49,360 nt of DNA from an uncultured Spartobacteria bacterium (lineage in GTDB: Bacteria > Verrucomicrobiota > Verrucomicrobiia > Chthoniobacterales > Chthoniobacteraceae), in NCBI GenBank assembly GCA_903933715.1, contig CAIZLD010000046.1:1-49360 (forward strand). Direction: 5' to 3'. This document shows positions 1,936 to 48,479 of this stretch, piece after piece. Under the pieces are notes generated by a model. That model made no database searches. It saw only the letters and a list, made by a program, of their open reading frames with translations, and was not told where the DNA came from. Position numbers and translations under genes: made by a program. The first letter of the stretch is position 1. Every line of letters starts with the position of its first letter.

Positions 1936-4900
1936 GTGCCGAATCGATCCGTCCTGTTATTTTTTTATCCCGTGGGCGCTTCAAAAAACTTCTCTTTCTT
2001 TCTCCGGTTCCGAATTGCGATGCTTCTCCTCGCAGGCGGATTATTGGCCCTCATGATTGAACCCCACACCTACCGGTTGCTGGCCAAATACGGGGTGTTG
2101 CTCCAGGCTTCGCATCACGGGGTGGACATCCGGATCGGGCAGACCCGGGGGAGCATTTTCGAACCGCTTGTTTTCAAAAACGTCCGGATTTCCACCTCCC
2201 GCGCCGGGGTGGTTTCCAAAGCAGAAATCGCCTCGGCGGAAGCTTCGTTTTCCTGGCGTACGCTCTTGTTTCAGCGCGGGCACGGTTTTTTTAACCGGCT
2301 CGTTCTTGACCGGGTTAAAGCCGACGTGGTTTTCGAGCCCAATGCCAAGGAGACCACCCCTGCCGCGACACCCGAACAGGCGCAGCTTCAATTTGAACCG
2401 TGGCTGCCTGCGCCGGCCCAGGTGAAAATGTCCGATTCAGCATTCACGTTTCATCTCGGCTCCCGGAAGGTCCATTTTTCCGGGGTCGGATTCACCGTCA
2501 GTTCGCTCCAGACGGGAAACATCGCGATCAATGAACTGACGTTCACCCAAGGGGGCTGCCACCGGGCTTTCGCCAACCTGAAAGGAACCACCGCGCTTCA
2601 GGATACCCAGTTGCGCATTGCCGACCTCACCCTCTCTCCCGGCGTCGTGCTCACGAGTGTTGCCTCCGATCTGGGCGAGATGGTCCGGGGCCGTTTGCAA
2701 GTCGATTTCGATTTCGCGGCATTTGGCGGAGTCTTGCGGGGAGAGATATTGAACACCGCGCTCGGCCGGATGCCCACGTATGAAATCGCGGGCCAGTTCT
2801 CGAATATTTCGCTGGAAGCGCTGGGCGGTTTCCTCAATATCGGCGAGAAAACCGGCGGGGTGATTAAGGAAGGCAAATTCAGCTTCCGGGGCACGCCGCA
2901 CGATCTCGACAACGCCACCGTCACCACGCGCCTGGAAGCCACCGATTTCCGGTGGGGGAAACGCCAATGGAACTCGCTCGTTCTTGGTGCGACCGTCATC
3001 AACCGCCGCGTCCAGATCCCCGAGCTTGAACTCCAGCAAGCCCATAACCGTTTGCGCATCAAAGGCGAACTCGCCCTGCCGGACGAAACGACCCCATGGT
3101 GGCTCTCCGATTTCAATTTCGATATTGCCGCCCGCCTCAACAATTTGACCGAACTCTCCGCCCTCTTTGGCCCCCAATTTGCAAAAACCGCCGGTAAAAT
3201 GGTCATCGACGGTTCCGTTCGAGCCGAGAACAAAGCCTATTCGGGCCAACTGCTCGTCTCGGGCAGCGCGCTGGCTTGGGAAGGGGTTCCGTTTGACCTC
3301 CTCAACGCCGGGATCAAGCTCGACGGCAACGAACTCCAGATCGTGAACCTGGAAATCACCCACGGCAAAGACTCGGTGCGCGGCAAGGGGAGCGTGAGCA
3401 TCCTGGGAGAGCGCCGTTACCAGGGGGAACTCGCCGCCTCGATTGAGGAACTGGCCGTCTACGAGCCGATCCTGCAAAAACCGATCGTCCCCGCCCCGCC
3501 CGTGGGGGGATTGGTAGTCAACTGGTCGGGCGACGGCTCCACCGGGGTCCATTCCGGTGCATTCAGCGCCCATTTCCGCAAACTTCACACCAAAGGCACC
3601 CCGGAACTTCCGGCCACCCTCCCGATCGACGCCGACTTGGAAGGAACCTACGCCCCCGGCAGCCTTTCCCTGAACAAATGCTCGCTGGCCAACGAAGACT
3701 TGCGCCTCGAAGGCCGGATGGCGGCCAACGCAACCACCGTCCAGCTCGACGGGTTGAAGCTCACGCAAAACAAGGAGCTTTGGCTGGAAGGCAACGTTAC
3801 GCTCCCGTTTAACCTGTTCCAATGGTGGGTGGAGCCGAGCTTGCAAGCCCTCGCCCCGGACGCCCCGTTCAAAGCGCAACTGAGCGCCAAAGAGGTGCAA
3901 CTCGAAGAAGTCGCCCACCTCACCGGGCGCGCCCTTCCCATTCGCGGCCTCCTCTCGGCGGAACTCAAAACCGAGAGCACGCTGCGCACCCTCCGCATGA
4001 CCGGCGCGTTAAAGCTCACCAAGGGGCAATTCCCCGCCAACGAATGGCTCCCCGCCCTCGACCGCCTGGAAGCCGAAGCGGAGATCGACGGCAATGTTCT
4101 GCGTTTCTCCAAGTTTTCCGCGCGGCATGAGCTGGGGGATTTCTCCGCCAACGGCTCAATCGATTTCTCGAAATTCGACCTCCCGTCGTTCGATCTTCTC
4201 ATCCACGGGGAAAAAGTCCGTTTCAACGCCGGGCCGCTTTGGGCTGGCAATGCCAACCTCGCCTTGAACGTCATTGGAACCCGCGATGCGGCCAATGTCA
4301 GCGGCAGCGTGGAGATTCTTGCGCTCGAAACCACCCCCCGGCCCGACTTTGGGGCACTCATTAATAGCGGCAACCCCGAAACGATTCGTGTGCCGGCACC
4401 CGAAATTTCATTGCAACCCCCCTTCGACCGCTGGAGCTACCAGTTGAACGTTACGACCCCGCAGCCGGTCAAAATCAAGAATGCGACGGTGGCAGCCGAA
4501 CTTCATTTCGATGGAACCGGCAGCCCGCTCGCCGGAACCGGAAGCCTTACGATCAGCGGCCTTCAAGCCAGCACCGCGTTCGCCACGGGCACGTTGGATA
4601 GCGGCACCTGGATTTTCGGCCCGCATCCGATGTTTACAGCCCGTTTAAGCGGCAAATTCGTCACGGGAGGCACCATGCCTGCTTACGAAGGACACATCGT
4701 GGGAACGCCTGAAGGGATCACGACCAGTTTCGCCGGAGTCCAGCCCGGTAACGACGAGTTGATCCGCAAGGCCTTCACTCCCGGCCCGCAATTGCTCCCG
4801 GAGAACGCCACCGAGATCCCGGTCGAGCGCGGTCCCCTCGTCTATAACGCGCAATTGGCCGACGAGATCGCCGCAAAAGAAGCGGCGGCCCAAGCGGCCC

Positions 4901-4965
4901 AGGCATCCGCGTCGCCCACCGTCCCACCCGTTTCCGCCGAAGCCACCCCGCCTCCCCCTAAATAG
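1936..4965 (+). CDS. AsmA/TamB-like envelope protein
   Basis: The large product (1009 residues from a GTG at 1936; 981 from an ATG at 2020) has a single hydrophobic N-terminal segment, MLLLAGGLLALMIEP, preceded by basic residues, so it is probably anchored in the inner membrane with its body in the periplasm. The rest is a long beta-rich chain with repeated short blocks on the pattern of hydrophobic strand, Gly, and Leu-x-Gly, such as GKMVIDGSV and LRIKGELALP. This is typical of AsmA, YhdP and TamB proteins, which form hydrophobic grooves moving phospholipid between membranes. An Ala/Pro-rich tail (about 975-1009) ends the protein. The family is recognised by overall character and not by one diagnostic motif, so the subfamily is open. 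The start is uncertain because no candidate has a clear ribosome site. It ends 12 bp before the M50 protease gene. Confidence 0.75.
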   Translation: MPNRSVLLFFYPVGASKNFSFFLRFRIAMLLLAGGLLALMIEPHTYRLLAKYGVLLQASHHGVDIRIGQTRGSIFEPLVFKNVRISTSRAGVVSKAEIASAEASFSWRTLLFQRGHGFFNRLVLDRVKADVVFEPNAKETTPAATPEQAQLQFEPWLPAPAQVKMSDSAFTFHLGSRKVHFSGVGFTVSSLQTGNIAINELTFTQGGCHRAFANLKGTTALQDTQLRIADLTLSPGVVLTSVASDLGEMVRGRLQVDFDFAAFGGVLRGEILNTALGRMPTYEIAGQFSNISLEALGGFLNIGEKTGGVIKEGKFSFRGTPHDLDNATVTTRLEATDFRWGKRQWNSLVLGATVINRRVQIPELELQQAHNRLRIKGELALPDETTPWWLSDFNFDIAARLNNLTELSALFGPQFAKTAGKMVIDGSVRAENKAYSGQLLVSGSALAWEGVPFDLLNAGIKLDGNELQIVNLEITHGKDSVRGKGSVSILGERRYQGELAASIEELAVYEPILQKPIVPAPPVGGLVVNWSGDGSTGVHSGAFSAHFRKLHTKGTPELPATLPIDADLEGTYAPGSLSLNKCSLANEDLRLEGRMAANATTVQLDGLKLTQNKELWLEGNVTLPFNLFQWWVEPSLQALAPDAPFKAQLSAKEVQLEEVAHLTGRALPIRGLLSAELKTESTLRTLRMTGALKLTKGQFPANEWLPALDRLEAEAEIDGNVLRFSKFSARHELGDFSANGSIDFSKFDLPSFDLLIHGEKVRFNAGPLWAGNANLALNVIGTRDAANVSGSVEILALETTPRPDFGALINSGNPETIRVPAPEISLQPPFDRWSYQLNVTTPQPVKIKNATVAAELHFDGTGSPLAGTGSLTISGLQASTAFATGTLDSGTWIFGPHPMFTARLSGKFVTGGTMPAYEGHIVGTPEGITTSFAGVQPGNDELIRKAFTPGPQLLPENATEIPVERGPLVYNAQLADEIAAKEAAAQAAQASASPTVPPVSAEATPPPPK

Positions 4966-4977
4966 AGGAGCCAAACC

Positions 4978-6159
4978 ATGAATCCGGAAAACCCAAGATC
5001 ACCCGATCAGGAAGACCCCGGAAATCCATCCCAACCTCCCGGTGTATTTCTCGGGACGTTTCAGAAGATCGAGTTCTACCTCGATTTCTCCTGGTTCTTC
5101 ATCGCCGCCCTGGTGATCTACTCCCTCTCGACTTTCCTTTTCCCGCAAGAGATCAAAGGGCTCGAACCGGCGGCCTACATCATCATGGGGACTGTCTCGA
5201 CGATCCTCTTTTTCCTCTCCATCCTGCTCCACGAGCTTGGGCATAGCCTCGTGAGCCAGCGATGCGGCATTCCGGTTCCCCGGATCACGCTCCTTTTTAT
5301 CGGCGGCATTGCCGAGATCTCCCGCGAGCCCGAAGACCCGAAAACCGAACTCAAAATCGCCGTCGCCGGACCCGCTGTATCGCTCATTCTGGTGGTGTTG
5401 TATTATTTGATCGCGCGAGGCTGTTCGCTCCTTTCGTTCCCGGAAGGCCAGGCGGTGTTCAACTGGCTTTCCCAAGTCAATTTACTGCTCGTGATCTTCA
5501 ACGCCATCCCCGGTTATCCGCTTGACGGCGGACGCGTCCTTCGAGCGCTTTTGTGGATGCGTAACGGGAAGTTTCGCCGGGCCACGTTCGTCACCTCCCG
5601 CATTGGCGTCTTCTTTAGTTGGCTCTTAATCGGGCTGGGCATCATGGTCGTCCTTGGCGGTGAATGGGGACAAGGGCTCATTTTTCTCATCATCGGCATC
5701 TTCCTGAAAAGCGCGGCCGAGAACGGCTACGCGCAAGCCCTTTCCAAGGAAATCCTCGACGGCGTGGGGGTCATCGACCTGATGACCCGCGCCCCGATCT
5801 GCATCCCGGCCCACCTGCCGCTCAACTTCGCCGTGGACGACTATTTTCTCACCCATCACCACGTCGCCTACCCGGTCACGGAGGAGGATGGGCGATTCCG
5901 GGGGCTCTTGCGGCTGGAATTTTTAAAAAACATCCCGCGCGAGAAATGGCCTTACACCAACGTGGGGGACGTGGCCGAAGCCAACGACGGGCAGCTCTGC
6001 ATCCCGGCTGCAACGAGCGCCTCCAACGCCTTGCGCATCCTGCTTGCGGCAGGCCAGGGGCGGCTGGGAGTCGTCGATGATGCACAGAAGCTCATCGGGA
6101 TCATCACCCGGCACGATTTACTGCATTTTATCCGGATTCATACGGAGTTGGAGGAATAA
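4978..6159 (+). CDS. Site-2-type (M50) membrane metalloprotease with CBS domains
   Basis: This 393-residue protein has several membrane segments (about 36-55, 66-85, 125-147, 165-178, 200-245). The zinc motif HELGH is at 85-89 and the third ligand is in NAIPGYPLDGGR, with Asp at about 183. These are the defining features of M50 proteases, which cut substrates within the membrane. The C-terminal third (about 262-390) reads as a pair of CBS domains, which often bind adenine nucleotides and regulate the protease; this is the Rip3/SpoIVFB-with-CBS arrangement. GAGGAG lies just before the ATG. The gene follows the AsmA-like gene by 12 bp, so they are probably one operon and both act in the envelope. 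No substrate such as an anti-sigma factor is encoded nearby. Confidence 0.9.
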   Translation: MNPENPRSPDQEDPGNPSQPPGVFLGTFQKIEFYLDFSWFFIAALVIYSLSTFLFPQEIKGLEPAAYIIMGTVSTILFFLSILLHELGHSLVSQRCGIPVPRITLLFIGGIAEISREPEDPKTELKIAVAGPAVSLILVVLYYLIARGCSLLSFPEGQAVFNWLSQVNLLLVIFNAIPGYPLDGGRVLRALLWMRNGKFRRATFVTSRIGVFFSWLLIGLGIMVVLGGEWGQGLIFLIIGIFLKSAAENGYAQALSKEILDGVGVIDLMTRAPICIPAHLPLNFAVDDYFLTHHHVAYPVTEEDGRFRGLLRLEFLKNIPREKWPYTNVGDVAEANDGQLCIPAATSASNALRILLAAGQGRLGVVDDAQKLIGIITRHDLLHFIRIHTELEE

Positions 6160-43964: not shown

Positions 43965-44072
43965 TGCGCAACAGACCCGCAAGGGCGACCTTGCAGCGCA
44001 AACCCGTTTTACCAAAAAATCCGTTTACAAACCGTTCAATCCGTCAAAAGCTTCTTTTTTACGCTGCGCACC

Positions 44073-44207
44073 ATGAAAATGACCTCCCTTTTCCTCCTGC
44101 TTGCTGTCACCCTTCTTGTTTCGGGCTGCTCCTCCTGCCCTGAAGACAAAGCCTTTTTTGAGCAGAACTGGAGACGTCCCGGCCAGATCGATGCTCACAT
44201 GAGCTAA
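44073..44207 (+). CDS. Very small lipoprotein
   Basis: The 44-residue product has a classical lipoprotein signal: MKMTSLFLLLAVTLLVSGC, with lipobox LVSGC and Cys19 as the lipidation site. The mature part is about 26 residues, SSCPEDKAFFEQNWRRPGQ and a few more, including a second Cys. It resembles short entericidin- or YjbE-like orphan lipoproteins only in size; I do not recognise a family. It sits 27 bases before the pilC-like gene on the same strand and may be co-transcribed, so a role near that machine is possible but unproven. Lgt and LolD, which would process and sort it, are encoded in this window. Confidence 0.6.
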   Translation: MKMTSLFLLLAVTLLVSGCSSCPEDKAFFEQNWRRPGQIDAHMS

Positions 44208-44234
44208 CCCCTCCCCGAGCGCTCCGCTTCTCCC

Positions 44235-45512
44235 ATGCCTGAATTCTCTTATGTCGCCCGAAAGCCAGACGGAAGCCTGATTCGCGGCACGCTGCAAGCC
44301 AACGATCGGCGCGCCGCCATTCTCCAGATCGAGCAGCAAAAGGGAGTGCCGATCAAGATCGAACCCGCAGCCGAGGCTCCCATTGCCACGGTGCCGCAAG
44401 CCGCCGCATCCCAACCGGCGGCCTCTTCTCAAACGCACGACCCCACAACGCTCGCCCCCCACGCGAAAATCCCGATTGCCCAGCTATTTCTGTTTACCGA
44501 GCAACTCGCACACCTGCTCTCGGCCGGGATGACGCTCGACCAAGCGCTGGGAATCCTGGTCCGCCGTTTGCAGGAGGCCAAATTAAAGGGGCTTTCGAGC
44601 GCGCTCCACCAGGCGTTGGTGGACGGACGGAGCCTTTCCCAGGCAATGCGCGATTTTCCCCGGGTTTTTTCCCCGCTTTACGTCAACATGGTCTCGGCAG
44701 GCGAAGCTTCCGGCGCGCTGCCTCAAATCCTGCGGCGGTTAGTGGCGCACATCGCTGACATCAAATCGTTACGGGACCGGGTCCAGCAAGCGCTCCTTTA
44801 CCCGGCGGCACTTGTGCTGGTGGGCATCTGTCTCATCATTATTTTCATGACCGTGATGGTTCCCCAGCTCACCAAGTTCCTCAAAACCACCGGGCAGGCG
44901 CTTCCGGCGGCCACCCAGATGCTCATCAATGCCAATTACCTGCTCACTCATTACTGGTGGGTGCTCATCCTGGCTGCCGCGGGGATTTTCGGGATTTGGA
45001 AAATCGCCACCCGCAGCCCCGAGGGCCGGTGCGCCTGGGATCGTTTTGTCTGGCATTTCCCGGGCTTCAGCCGGATTCCGCGCTACCGCTTTTACGCCCA
45101 GTTTGCCCGCACGCTCGCCACCCTTTCCGAAAACGGCGTCACCCTCCTCAAATCGCTCGAACTGCTCGAAAACATCGCTGATAACCAGTGGGTGCAGCAA
45201 CGCATGGTCACGGTCCGCAGCGCAGTGATCGATGGCGCGGGGCTCTCCAATGCTCTTCGGCAGGAAGTTCTTTTCCCCGAGCTGTTCCTGGACATGATGG
45301 CGGTGGGCGAACAAACCGGTCGTTTTTCGGAAACCATGGCAATGATCGCCGATGTGCATGAGCGGGAACTCGATAAACAAGTTCAATTTGTTTCCACGCT
45401 CGTCCCGCTGCTGGTCATCATCGTCATCGCGGTGATGGTCGGCGTCATGGTTTACGCGATCCTGAGCGCCGTGTTCGGCCTCACCTCGGGGTTACAAGGG
45501 CGCATTCATTAG
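44235..45512 (+). CDS. Type II secretion/type IV pilus inner-membrane platform protein (PilC/GspF)
   Basis: The 425-residue product starts with FSYVARKPDGSLIRGTLQA, the typical N-terminus of GspF/PilC, followed by an Ala/Pro/Thr-rich linker (about 45-80). Two T2SF domains follow: the first near 85-205 with FTEQLAHLLSAGMTLDQAL and YVNMVSAGEASGALPQIL, the second near 285-410 with FARTLATLSENGVTLLKSLELL and DMMAVGEQTGRF. Three membrane segments are seen (about 192-215, 240-260, 390-415). It recruits the assembly ATPase. Only the platform protein is here; the PilT-like ATPases are 20 kb away, so it could serve a type IV pilus, a type II system or a competence machine. Confidence 0.9.
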   Translation: MPEFSYVARKPDGSLIRGTLQANDRRAAILQIEQQKGVPIKIEPAAEAPIATVPQAAASQPAASSQTHDPTTLAPHAKIPIAQLFLFTEQLAHLLSAGMTLDQALGILVRRLQEAKLKGLSSALHQALVDGRSLSQAMRDFPRVFSPLYVNMVSAGEASGALPQILRRLVAHIADIKSLRDRVQQALLYPAALVLVGICLIIIFMTVMVPQLTKFLKTTGQALPAATQMLINANYLLTHYWWVLILAAAGIFGIWKIATRSPEGRCAWDRFVWHFPGFSRIPRYRFYAQFARTLATLSENGVTLLKSLELLENIADNQWVQQRMVTVRSAVIDGAGLSNALRQEVLFPELFLDMMAVGEQTGRFSETMAMIADVHERELDKQVQFVSTLVPLLVIIVIAVMVGVMVYAILSAVFGLTSGLQGRIH

Positions 45513-45530
45513 CAAAGGGAAAACCCCGGC

Positions 45531-45560
45531 GGGAGAAGCGGGGATTGACCCGCTCCTCCC
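45531..45560. terminator. Hairpin between pilC-like gene and ORF A
   Basis: GGGAGAAGCGGG (45531-45542) and CCCGCTCCTCCC (45549-45560) form a 12-bp stem with one A-C mismatch and a 6-base loop. It lies between two convergent genes. On the minus strand GGGGTTTTCCC follows, on the plus strand an A-run, so it fits better as the end of the minus-strand transcript but may serve both. Confidence 0.5.
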
Positions 45561-45567
45561 CAAAAAG

Positions 45568-45696
45568 CTACTCCTCTTTAAGATGAATCCGAAGTGCGTG
45601 GCGCGTGGCTTTATCCATGCAATGCAGGGAATACGCCTGGCGCAGAATTTGCGAGACCGTCCGTTTCCGGTTTTTCCCGGCCGGAGCTTTGGACAT
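45568..45696 (-). CDS. Tiny basic protein A, paralogue of protein B
   Basis: The 42-residue product is Lys/Arg-rich. Its core KRTVSQILRQAY and its tail ATRHALRIHL align without gaps to protein B at 46224-46358. They share 19 identical residues and a C-x6-H-x4-H arrangement (Cys26, His33, His38 here). Thirteen of the 19 shared residues use different synonymous codons, so selection on the protein is the simplest explanation. There is no hydrophobic segment; nucleic acid or metal binding is possible. A strong terminator-like hairpin ends seven bases before the ATG and no ribosome site is seen, so how it is expressed is unclear. An in-frame GTG at 45783 would read through that hairpin. I know no family for it. 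Confidence 0.6.
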   Translation of the reverse strand: MSKAPAGKNRKRTVSQILRQAYSLHCMDKATRHALRIHLKEE

Positions 45697-45702
45697 GGGA
45701 GT

Positions 45703-45738
45703 AAAAAACGGGCGAGCCCTATCCTTTGGATCGGGCTC
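45703..45738 (-). terminator. Intrinsic terminator or attenuator between the Met-rich gene and ORF A
   Basis: On the minus strand GAGCCCGATCC and GGATAGGGCTC (45738-45728 and 45724-45714) pair over 11 positions with one G-A mismatch around an AAA loop. GCCCG and six T residues (45708-45703) follow. This is the best intrinsic terminator in the window. It begins 20 bases after the stop of the Met-rich gene and ends just before the ATG of ORF A, so it either ends the operon or meters read-through into ORF A. Confidence 0.7.
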
Positions 45739-45757
45739 CCGGAGATCAGATTTCAAG

Positions 45758-46141
45758 TTATTGAGGGCTCGCCGCCGTTCCACCGGTCATTGGAGTTTTA
45801 CCCATTTTGTTTTTCATCCAGTCCATCATTTTCTGGTGATGCGCCTCCATATCCGCATACCAGGTTTTGCGCTGTTCCATCATTTTGTTGATGACGGTCG
45901 CCATCGCATCCATTTTTTTGTCGCCGGTGGCGGCGTTCATATCAGAGACCAGTTTTTCGAGCTCGTCATTCTGGGCTTTGAATTTCTCCATCAATTTCTG
46001 ATGCCACTGCATCATGTCTCCCTTATGCATGCCCATCATCTGGCAGCAATTCATTGAGGAAGCACTCGCGTCCTGGGCAACAAGCGTCCCAGCCGATAAC
46101 ATCCCCGCGGCTAAAATACTGAATAGTTGAATTGGTTTCAT
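45758..46141 (-). CDS. Secreted Met/His-rich helical protein
   Basis: The 127-residue product has a signal peptide (1-23, cleavage probably after LVAQ). The mature part of about 104 residues contains 18 Met, plus His39, His47, His101, His102 and the pair Cys32-Cys33. Two segments stand out: NCCQMMGMHKGDMMQWHQK (31-49) and AHHQKMMDWMKNKM (100-113). The rest is predicted helical with a charged central stretch. Met/His clusters of this kind bind copper or silver in the periplasm, and the overall shape recalls CpxP/Spy-like helical proteins, but no family motif is certain. It is flanked on both sides by the paralogous tiny basic proteins on the same strand. Confidence 0.75.
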   Translation of the reverse strand: MKPIQLFSILAAGMLSAGTLVAQDASASSMNCCQMMGMHKGDMMQWHQKLMEKFKAQNDELEKLVSDMNAATGDKKMDAMATVINKMMEQRKTWYADMEAHHQKMMDWMKNKMGKTPMTGGTAASPQ

Positions 46142-46223
46142 AGGTAAGCAAATATGCTCCCTCTATTCGCATTTGCCGCCCAAGGCGGACCCTATTTAAC
46201 GGCCTCTATGCCGACCCCTTTTT

Positions 46224-46358
46224 TTACTTTCTTAAATGGGCGCGCAGCGCATGCCGCGTGGCTCTTTCCCGGCAAAATCGAGCGTAAGATTTACGCAGGA
46301 TCTGCGAAATGGTGCGCTTCGGACGTTTGCTGATGGGGGTTTTCCCTGACTGACTCAT
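46224..46358 (-). CDS. Tiny basic protein B, paralogue of protein A
   Basis: This 44-residue ORF starts with ATG at 46358 and ends with TAA at 46224. It reads MSQSGKTPISKRP, then KRTISQILRKSY, a Cys at 29, and ATRHALRAHLRK. The conserved C-x6-H-x4-H is Cys29, His36, His41. About 35% of residues are Lys, Arg or His, and there is no membrane segment. It lies 53 bases after the purU stop and 83 bases before the Met-rich gene on the same strand. GAGG is 11 bases before the ATG; TTGACA at 46396-46391 could be a -35 box but no good -10 element follows at normal spacing. Function unknown. Confidence 0.65.
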   Translation of the reverse strand: MSQSGKTPISKRPKRTISQILRKSYARFCRERATRHALRAHLRK

Positions 46359-46410
46359 AATGGGGATAACCTCGACCCGCTAACGGTTCGTGTCAAATGC
46401 TGCCGTTTCC

Positions 46411-47265
46411 CTAATCCCGAAAGACAATCGAGCGATTGCCGTGGATGAGCACGCGATCTTCGACGTGATAACGGACCCCGCGCGCAAGGGCCATCCGTTC
46501 GCAATCGCGCCCGAGCCGAAGCATATCTTCGGGCGTGTGGAAGTGTTCCACCCGGACGACGTCCTGGTCGATGATCGGCCCCGCATCCAGATCCGCCGTG
46601 GCGTAATGGCAGGTCGCACCGATCAGTTTAACGCCACGTTCGTAGGCCCGCTTGTACGGGTTGGCTCCCGCGAACGACGGCAAAAACGAATGATGGATAT
46701 TAATGACCTTGCCGTGCCAGCGCTCGCAAAGGGTGGCCGGAAAAATCTGCATGTACCGGGCGAGCACCACCAAGTCTGCCTCCACTTCTCGGAAGAGGCA
46801 TTCCATTTTTTCAAAAGCGGAAGCTTTCGTCCCGGCGGTCACCGGAACAAACGCAAACGGGATCCCCTCCCGCTCCACGACCGAACGCAACTCTTCGTGA
46901 TTGGAAATGACGAGCGGAATCGCCATGGGCAGTTCCCCGGAACGCCAGCGCCACAGCAGGTCGGCCAAACAGTGATCGAGCTTGGAGACCATCAGGACCA
47001 CGCGCATTTTTTGCCTGGTTTCGCGGATGGTCCATTCCCCTTCCAAGTCCGACCCCAACGGGGTGAACGCCTTCCGCAAGGCGGCGGGATCGAGGGCGAG
47101 ACTCGCGGAATCAATGGCCAGCCGTGCAAAAAACCATTTGTTAAGGGGATCAGTGAACTGATTGACCTCCAGCAAATTGCCGCCGTGATAAGCCACAAAA
47201 CTGGTCAACCGGGCCAGCAGGCCGACCCGGTCGGGACAAGAAATTTTCAACAGCGTGAGAGCCAT
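46411..47265 (-). CDS. purU: Formyltetrahydrofolate deformylase PurU
   Basis: The 284-residue product hydrolyses 10-formyl-THF to THF and formate. The N-terminal ACT domain starts KISCPDRVGLLARLTSFVAYHGGNLLE in family style (key part CPDRVGLLA, about 10-18). The catalytic formyltransferase domain contains INIHHSFLPSFAGANPY near 205, with the His pair and the following Ser, and ATCHYATADLDAGPIIDQD near 235 with the catalytic Asp. Length equals E. coli PurU (280). PurU supplies formate and balances one-carbon pools; PurN is related but lacks the ACT domain. It is divergent from aroB and is followed on the same strand by the tiny basic protein B. Confidence 0.95.
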   Translation of the reverse strand: MALTLLKISCPDRVGLLARLTSFVAYHGGNLLEVNQFTDPLNKWFFARLAIDSASLALDPAALRKAFTPLGSDLEGEWTIRETRQKMRVVLMVSKLDHCLADLLWRWRSGELPMAIPLVISNHEELRSVVEREGIPFAFVPVTAGTKASAFEKMECLFREVEADLVVLARYMQIFPATLCERWHGKVINIHHSFLPSFAGANPYKRAYERGVKLIGATCHYATADLDAGPIIDQDVVRVEHFHTPEDMLRLGRDCERMALARGVRYHVEDRVLIHGNRSIVFRD

Positions 47266-47381
47266 GGTGGTTCATTGTTTAGCCTCGGAATGAACCGACG
47301 GCAAGCCTTCGCTCCCCGAAATGTCCGGTGGCCCTGCACTTTCGGCGTGAGATTTATCTGCGGTTATGTTCCGGTAGAGGG

Positions 47382-48479
47382 ATGAACTCGCAAATCCATT
47401 CCGTCCCCGTCCCGCTGGGTTCCCGCGCTTACAGCGTCCTCGTCGGCGCGGGTATCCTTCCCCAACTGGGCCGGTTGGCGAGCGAACTGGAAACACCGCT
47501 GGGGAAACGGTGTGCCGTAATCACCGACAGCAACGTCGCTCCGCTCTACAGCGAGACTGTCCTGGTCAGCTTGAGCGCGGCGGGTTATACCCCCACCCTC
47601 ATCCCCGTGCCTGCGGGCGAGGCTTCCAAGAATATGAAGGTGGCCGAGCAGGTTTGCGAGGAGATGATCGCCGCCGGGCTCGACCGCAGTTCGTGGGTGG
47701 TCGCCTTGGGCGGGGGAGTCGTCGGCGATCTCGCCGGATTCGTCGCCGCGATTTATTACCGGGGCATTCCGTTTGTTCAAATCCCCACCACGGTGATCTC
47801 GCAAGTCGATAGCGCCGTGGGCGGCAAAACCGGGGTGAACACGGCGCATGGCAAAAATCTTATCGGCGCGTTTCATCAACCCCGGCTCGTCCTGGCCGAT
47901 GTCGTCACGCTCCAAAGCCTGCCGCCACGGGAGTTCAACGAAGGATTTGGCGAGATCATCAAACACGCCGCCATCCGCGACCGCTCCCTTTTGGAGCCGC
48001 TTGCCACCCCCAATCTCCAGTTTGAACCGGCGACGCTCGCGCATGTGATCCGCCGCAATGTCGAGATCAAAGCCGCCATTGTCGCCGGGGACGAACACGA
48101 AACGCTTGGCCTTCGCGCACTGCTCAATTTCGGGCACACCATCGGCCACGGGATCGAAAACGCCGCCGGGTACGGGCGTTATCTGCACGGGGAAGCGGTT
48201 AGCCTGGGGCTGGTCGCGGCGGCCCGTCTCTCGGTCGCAAAAGCGGGGCTTGCACCGGAGGAATGCCAGCTTCTGCTCGATGCCCTGGCCCGGTTCGACC
48301 TCCCGATGCGGTTACCGGACGATATTTCCACCGAACGGCTGATGGCGGCGCTTCTGAAGGATAAGAAATTCGCGCAAGGGCAAGTCCGCTTCGTGCTTTG
48401 CCCTCGGCTGGGCGAGGCCTATCTGTCCAAAGAGGTCACGTTGGAAGAGATTAGCCAATCGGTTGAGGCTTTGCGGTAA
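47382..48479 (+). CDS. aroB: 3-dehydroquinate synthase
   Basis: The 365-residue enzyme converts DAHP to 3-dehydroquinate, the second shikimate step, using NAD and a divalent metal. The NAD-binding block LGGGVVGDLAGFVAAIYYRGI (about 108-128) is cited by its core GGGVVGDLAGF. QIPTTVISQVDSAVGGKTGVN follows, and metal ligands fall in the EIIKHAAI region (Glu near 190), LNFGHTIGHGIE and HGEAV. The ATG at 47382 gives the standard length; the upstream in-frame extension is not supported. The 3' end overlaps the convergent dxs gene by 29 bases. Confidence 0.96.
   Translation: MNSQIHSVPVPLGSRAYSVLVGAGILPQLGRLASELETPLGKRCAVITDSNVAPLYSETVLVSLSAAGYTPTLIPVPAGEASKNMKVAEQVCEEMIAAGLDRSSWVVALGGGVVGDLAGFVAAIYYRGIPFVQIPTTVISQVDSAVGGKTGVNTAHGKNLIGAFHQPRLVLADVVTLQSLPPREFNEGFGEIIKHAAIRDRSLLEPLATPNLQFEPATLAHVIRRNVEIKAAIVAGDEHETLGLRALLNFGHTIGHGIENAAGYGRYLHGEAVSLGLVAAARLSVAKAGLAPEECQLLLDALARFDLPMRLPDDISTERLMAALLKDKKFAQGQVRFVLCPRLGEAYLSKEVTLEEISQSVEALR

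Follow-up and report, generated by a model that had tools for sequence, protein, structure and literature searches.

What are two tiny, basic proteins doing on either side of a methionine-rich secreted protein in an uncultured Spartobacteria bacterium, and do the three genes belong together? The window, i.e., the whole 49,360-nt stretch of DNA analyzed here, carries them in the order S1, Met-rich gene, S2, purU (Table 1). S2, the Met-rich gene, and S1 are co-directional, and S2 lies 52 nt after the purU stop. A first-pass annotation, made from the letters of the window, had described two homologous minus-strand ORFs of 42 and 44 codons flanking the secreted protein, and our analysis recovered this arrangement at the same positions. 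It had further suggested that the two small proteins could be nucleic-acid- or metal-binding regulators tied to envelope metal handling, and the fate of that suggestion depends on what is conserved in relatives, both in the proteins and around their genes.

Table 1. Features of the S1/S2 locus, with positions counted along the window.
Feature	Coordinates	Strand	Details
S1, tiny basic protein, 42 aa	45568..45696	(-)	ATG at 45696, stop 45568-45570; sequence MSKAPAGKNRKRTVSQILRQAYSLHCMDKATRHALRIHLKEE
Secreted Met-rich protein, 127 aa	45758..46141	(-)	lies between S1 and S2
S2, tiny basic protein, 44 aa	46224..46358	(-)	ATG at 46358; sequence MSQSGKTPISKRPKRTISQILRKSYARFCRERATRHALRAHLRK
ATTTGACA, -35-like element (TTGACA)	46391..46398	(-)	32 nt upstream of the S2 start codon
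purU, formyltetrahydrofolate deformylase	46411..47265	(-)	NCBIfam PurU above cut-off

The similarity between S1 and S2 is real. The earlier figure was 19 identical residues, 13 of them with different codons, which apparently describes the shared core; the full alignment gives 23 identical residues (56% identity), with differing codons at 14 of these. When the whole 2.8-Mb genome was searched with S2 as the query, S1 was retrieved at E = 6e-11 and no third copy rose above noise. Between the two copies, dN is 0.26 and dS has reached saturation, so the pair did not arise by a recent duplication. The window's genome is the only one in which two copies of the tiny gene stand in tandem.

The ORF is conserved in related genomes. 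A search with S2, followed by profile searches, placed the family in 13 of the 40 genomes of the GTDB family, the window's own included; the homologs come from each of the four remaining genus genomes and from eight more in the GTDB family, at profile E values of 1e-15 to 1e-22. These relatives are Spartobacteria/Chthoniobacteraceae MAGs, and five named records were obtained from the profile search of genome contigs. Beyond the GTDB family, a single marginal candidate (G037, E 1e-5) turned up in the 213 genomes searched from the order and the 384 sampled from the class; a limited number of candidates was scored per genome, and the absence of the family elsewhere is therefore not proven. Protein-level selection, which had originally been read from the codon differences within the pair, is borne out by the orthologs, where dN is far below dS (0.06 vs ~2.0 for G001/G003, and 0.19 vs 2.8 for G001/G004). 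The tiny family is thus real, protein-coding, and under purifying selection.

The first-pass annotation had recognized no described family, and we agree: searches of Pfam, NCBIfam, PHROGs, and PDB sequences returned no credible match for any of the 15 family members, and the S1/S2 family is previously unnamed. The LEAFY C-terminal DNA-binding domain (Pfam PF17538) matched S1 over 22 residues at E 0.044, with 13.9 bits against a gathering score of 25 bits, and was treated as chance. A viral origin was likewise set aside, as none of 28 pattern matches in IMG/VR was a relative, and Rfam had no match over positions 44000-47500 of the window. In being short, conserved, and commonly unannotated, these ORFs resemble the small-protein families catalogued in GMSC-type collections (PMC11364881).

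Family members are 40-54 residues long and rich in Arg and Lys, with 10-16 K/R per protein versus 1-5 D/E. The alignment of the 15 members gives a consensus of roughly RK-x-[TS]-[IV]-x-x-ILREAYRRHxRDxxTRxAVRRxL, in which ILREAY, followed by a T-x-x-A helix, forms the conserved core; conservation is confined to L21, Y25, A24, T34, and A37 together with the K/R surface. AlphaFold2 modeling predicts a disordered basic tail at the N-terminus followed by two short amphipathic helices at residues 17-28 and 32-42, with moderate confidence (pLDDT ~77-85), and a Foldseek search with this model found no match. No hydrophobic segment or signal peptide was seen, and the family proteins are probably cytoplasmic.

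These patterns divide the proposal of nucleic-acid- or metal-binding regulators into two unequal halves. The proteins are basic enough for a nucleic-acid binder, and this half stands; binding of metal through Cys and His does not, because those residues are not conserved. Both window copies do have the C-x6-H-x4-H spacing, and it is this motif, with the co-direction of S2, the Met-rich gene, and S1, that would make them Cys/His metal-binding regulators tied to the Met-rich envelope protein. Across the 15-member alignment, however, neither the Cys nor either His is conserved: all three are missing in most homologs of other genera (G015, G026, G029, G012, G020), and even among genus members the first His gives way to D, D, M, and T. 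A metal-ligand reading, including that of a zinc ribbon, was therefore rejected. On sequence grounds the metal-regulator explanation appears largely refuted by this non-conservation, and we consider it very unlikely.

The link to the Met-rich gene is weak as well. The two genes are adjacent in three of the five genus genomes only (G000, which is the window's genome, G003, and G004); the Met-rich gene is 25 kb away in G001 and on another contig in G002, and in other genera the tiny gene occurs without the Met-rich gene. The Met-rich protein itself has a signal-like hydrophobic segment at its N-terminus, and after residue 23 it contains 17.3% Met, 4 His, and 2 Cys, in line with the roughly 17% Met first noted for its mature part. 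Homologs with 54-61% identity occur in all five genus genomes; W46-H47-Q48 and several Met residues are invariant in them, and the Cys residues are not conserved. The protein is predicted to form a long helical hairpin, it has no Pfam family, and a search for relatives on plasmids gave no match. A role of this protein in metal binding is plausible. In G004 and G001 the Met-rich gene adjoins a membrane transporter that by eye resembles bile acid:sodium symporters (coordinates 4172-5059 and 4256-5164 in the two stretches, respectively).

The stable association of the tiny gene, which is not visible from a single window, is with a PlcP-type metallophosphoesterase gene and Pho boxes. The tiny gene stands head-to-head with the metallophosphoesterase gene in 9 of the 13 genomes (G001, G003, G004, G011, G012, G015, G019, G020, G029), and G002, in which both genes are cut by contig ends, is compatible with the same pairing. 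Neither an adjoining plcP nor a Pho box accompanies the tiny gene of G009 or the second copy in G019. The neighbor is homologous to LpxH (UDP-2,3-diacylglucosamine diphosphatase), and such genes are annotated as LpxH in public records. It differs from LpxH in falling under both NCBIfam cut-offs (in G004, 54.3 vs 134 bits for NF003743 and 51.5 vs 190 bits for TIGR01854), in being closer to a gene of S. meliloti, and in carrying Pho boxes. The S. meliloti protein, 49% identical over 91%, is encoded beside an AHL synthase/LuxR pair; this resembles the sinI/sinR neighborhood, and the protein is probably SMc00171, the phospholipase C PlcP of lipid remodeling. The neighbor of the tiny gene in relatives is here termed a PlcP-type protein and is a putative phospholipase C. 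As a minor observation, CP090106.1, a 3.7-Mb record labeled as S. meliloti pSymB, carries the AHL synthase/LuxR/plcP-like neighborhood, and its replicon label looks wrong, since this neighborhood is presumably chromosomal. Earlier work (Sebastian et al., PMC4796936) reported putative Pho boxes in clusters containing plcP and noted that a verrucomicrobium encodes a PlcP homolog. The PlcP-type neighborhoods of that study (S. meliloti PlcP) share with the relatives analyzed here a plcP-like gene with Pho boxes; the partner studied there is a glycosyltransferase (agt), whereas the divergent partner here is a tiny basic protein.

In the gap between plcP and the tiny gene, TGTCAC-type repeats recur with an 11-nt period, and (G)TGACA is present four times in G001, G003, and G004. 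The pattern TGTCAC-N5-TGTCAC-N5-TGTCAC, with up to 2 mismatches, was run on the 40 family genomes and gave 27 matches, compared with 0 for the reversed control. Three of the genus genomes have matches in the plcP-tiny gap. Others precede the porin-pstS-pstC-pstA-pstB-phoU operon of G000 and its counterpart in G004, a porin gene of that kind in G002, G029, G030, and G032, and pstS in G034, the pst gene names being read from translated sequences rather than from profile scans. A few other matches have no evident phosphate link. Its position upstream of porin-pst operons and pstS identifies the TGTCAC element, judging by sequence, as the Pho box of the lineage. In G000 (G000:C51 2039-9312) and G004 (G004:C2) the porin gene heads the pst operon behind several tandem Pho-box units, and such boxes recur at porin genes of this type in several genera.

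A matrix was then built from the pst/porin boxes only and applied at a threshold score of 10.8 or more. A box was found upstream of 10 of the 15 tiny genes (Fisher p = 2e-10), while at the same threshold the background was 0 of 400 random stretches and 2 of 82 long-ORF upstream regions, each of the two belonging to a pst operon. The box is oriented toward the tiny gene in genera g2, g8, and g9, where six of seven cases have it 51-66 nt ahead of the ATG and G012 has it at -116; the tiny gene of G026 has its own box without an adjoining plcP. The strongest boxes of genus g1 point to plcP and not to the tiny gene, and plcP-like genes in genera where no tiny gene was found often carry boxes as well. 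The box may therefore serve plcP alone in some genomes, and it is not assignable to the tiny gene alone everywhere. Genes for receiver-domain response regulators also occur at these loci: in G026 (G026:C562, 943-2822) plcP is divergent from such a gene, with a Pho box between them, and not from the tiny gene, and receiver genes adjoin the tiny gene in G011 and G019 (at coordinates 4573 and 2591 of their stretches, respectively).

Considering the divergent transcription from plcP and the tandem Pho boxes in the gap, the tiny family is most likely part of the phosphate-starvation (Pho) response, and the comparison points to this link in place of the metal interpretation. The explanation we favor, with moderate confidence, is that of a lineage-specific small-protein family of the Pho regulon, made together with PlcP lipid remodeling, perhaps binding nucleic acid, and uncoupled from Pho in the window's genome. 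Upon phosphate starvation the tiny gene would be induced, and its product would be made when PlcP-driven remodeling of membrane lipids switches on. The basic faces of the predicted helical hairpin could then bind an anionic partner, of which nucleic acid (RNA or DNA) is the likeliest, and the protein may act as a small regulator or protector in starvation. This binding, proposed from charge and predicted fold, is of low certainty.

The window's own locus departs from this arrangement. In G004 the gene order is Met-rich, tiny, plcP, purU, and S2 occupies the syntenic position of the relatives' single copy, between purU/plcP and the Met-rich gene. No plcP-like gene was detectable in the window's genome (97% complete), and purU, a conserved neighbor, marks the site of the missing gene. 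There is no recognizable Pho box within 180 nt upstream of S1, scoring the whole window with the Pho-box matrix gave nothing above 12.5, and the best-scoring sites ahead of S1 and S2 have p values of 0.25 and 0.67; with no box at either gene, Pho control cannot be claimed for the window's genome. A different upstream element is present: each of the five genus genomes has the exact 8-mer ATTTGACA at a distance of 28-42 nt upstream of the tiny gene, and no convincing -10 hexamer was found at normal spacing from it. The simplest reading is that plcP and the boxes were lost at this site and the tiny gene was kept, with a second, not recent copy beyond the Met-rich gene. Since the locus lacks plcP and the Pho boxes, S2 keeps the promoter-like ATTTGACA, and S1 is a duplicate, the window's tiny protein appears to be uncoupled from Pho control.

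The survival of the tiny gene in the absence of plcP speaks against its product being an obligate PlcP accessory. It also bears on the possibility of an amphipathic peptide at the membrane surface, one whose basic helices would bind the anionic membrane and, in phosphate starvation, help or regulate PlcP or lipid remodeling. A highly basic protein, predicted to be helical and having a Pho-box region in common with its divergent partner plcP, would fit such a role; however, two copies remain in G000, where no plcP was found, the gene has no adjoining plcP in G009 and G026, many genera possess plcP with no tiny gene found, and the protein has neither a visible hydrophobic segment nor a signal peptide. 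We regard the membrane-surface role as unlikely.

The same events at the window's locus could be read in favor of a housekeeping function unrelated to phosphate, e.g., that of a ribosome-associated small protein, with the plcP synteny reflecting inherited gene order. Short basic proteins of such composition are typical of ribosome- or nucleoid-associated factors, the tiny gene outlives the loss of plcP and is duplicated, and the TTGACA-containing upstream element of genus g1 could be a constitutive promoter. On the other hand, a gene present in only 13 of 40 family genomes and nearly absent outside the family is not core, and Pho boxes precede most members, including one without an adjoining plcP, which makes a housekeeping function improbable in our view.

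Returning to the favored Pho-regulon explanation, a more specific and rather doubtful form of it would make the protein a dedicated regulator of phosphate starvation. A two-helix basic protein, produced from Pho-box promoters opposite plcP, would tune lipid remodeling or other starvation targets, either post-transcriptionally through RNA binding or directly, and after the loss of plcP it would have been recruited to a Pho-independent, duplicated role in the window's lineage. If the Pho link is true, a conserved unnamed small-protein family is added to what Verrucomicrobia deploy against phosphate starvation, and further regulon members can be predicted with the Pho box of the lineage. The Cys/His motif of the single window was misleading, and it was the comparative context that led to a testable role.

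The marginal candidate in G037, which belongs to another family of the order, is a tiny-like ORF, AAKALKEAYRLHTSDKYTRQATRRYLR, on the minus strand of G037:C3 (~1498-1670). It lies directly upstream of an ADP-heptose kinase-like gene and has a weak Pho-box-like site upstream, with a score of 12.1.
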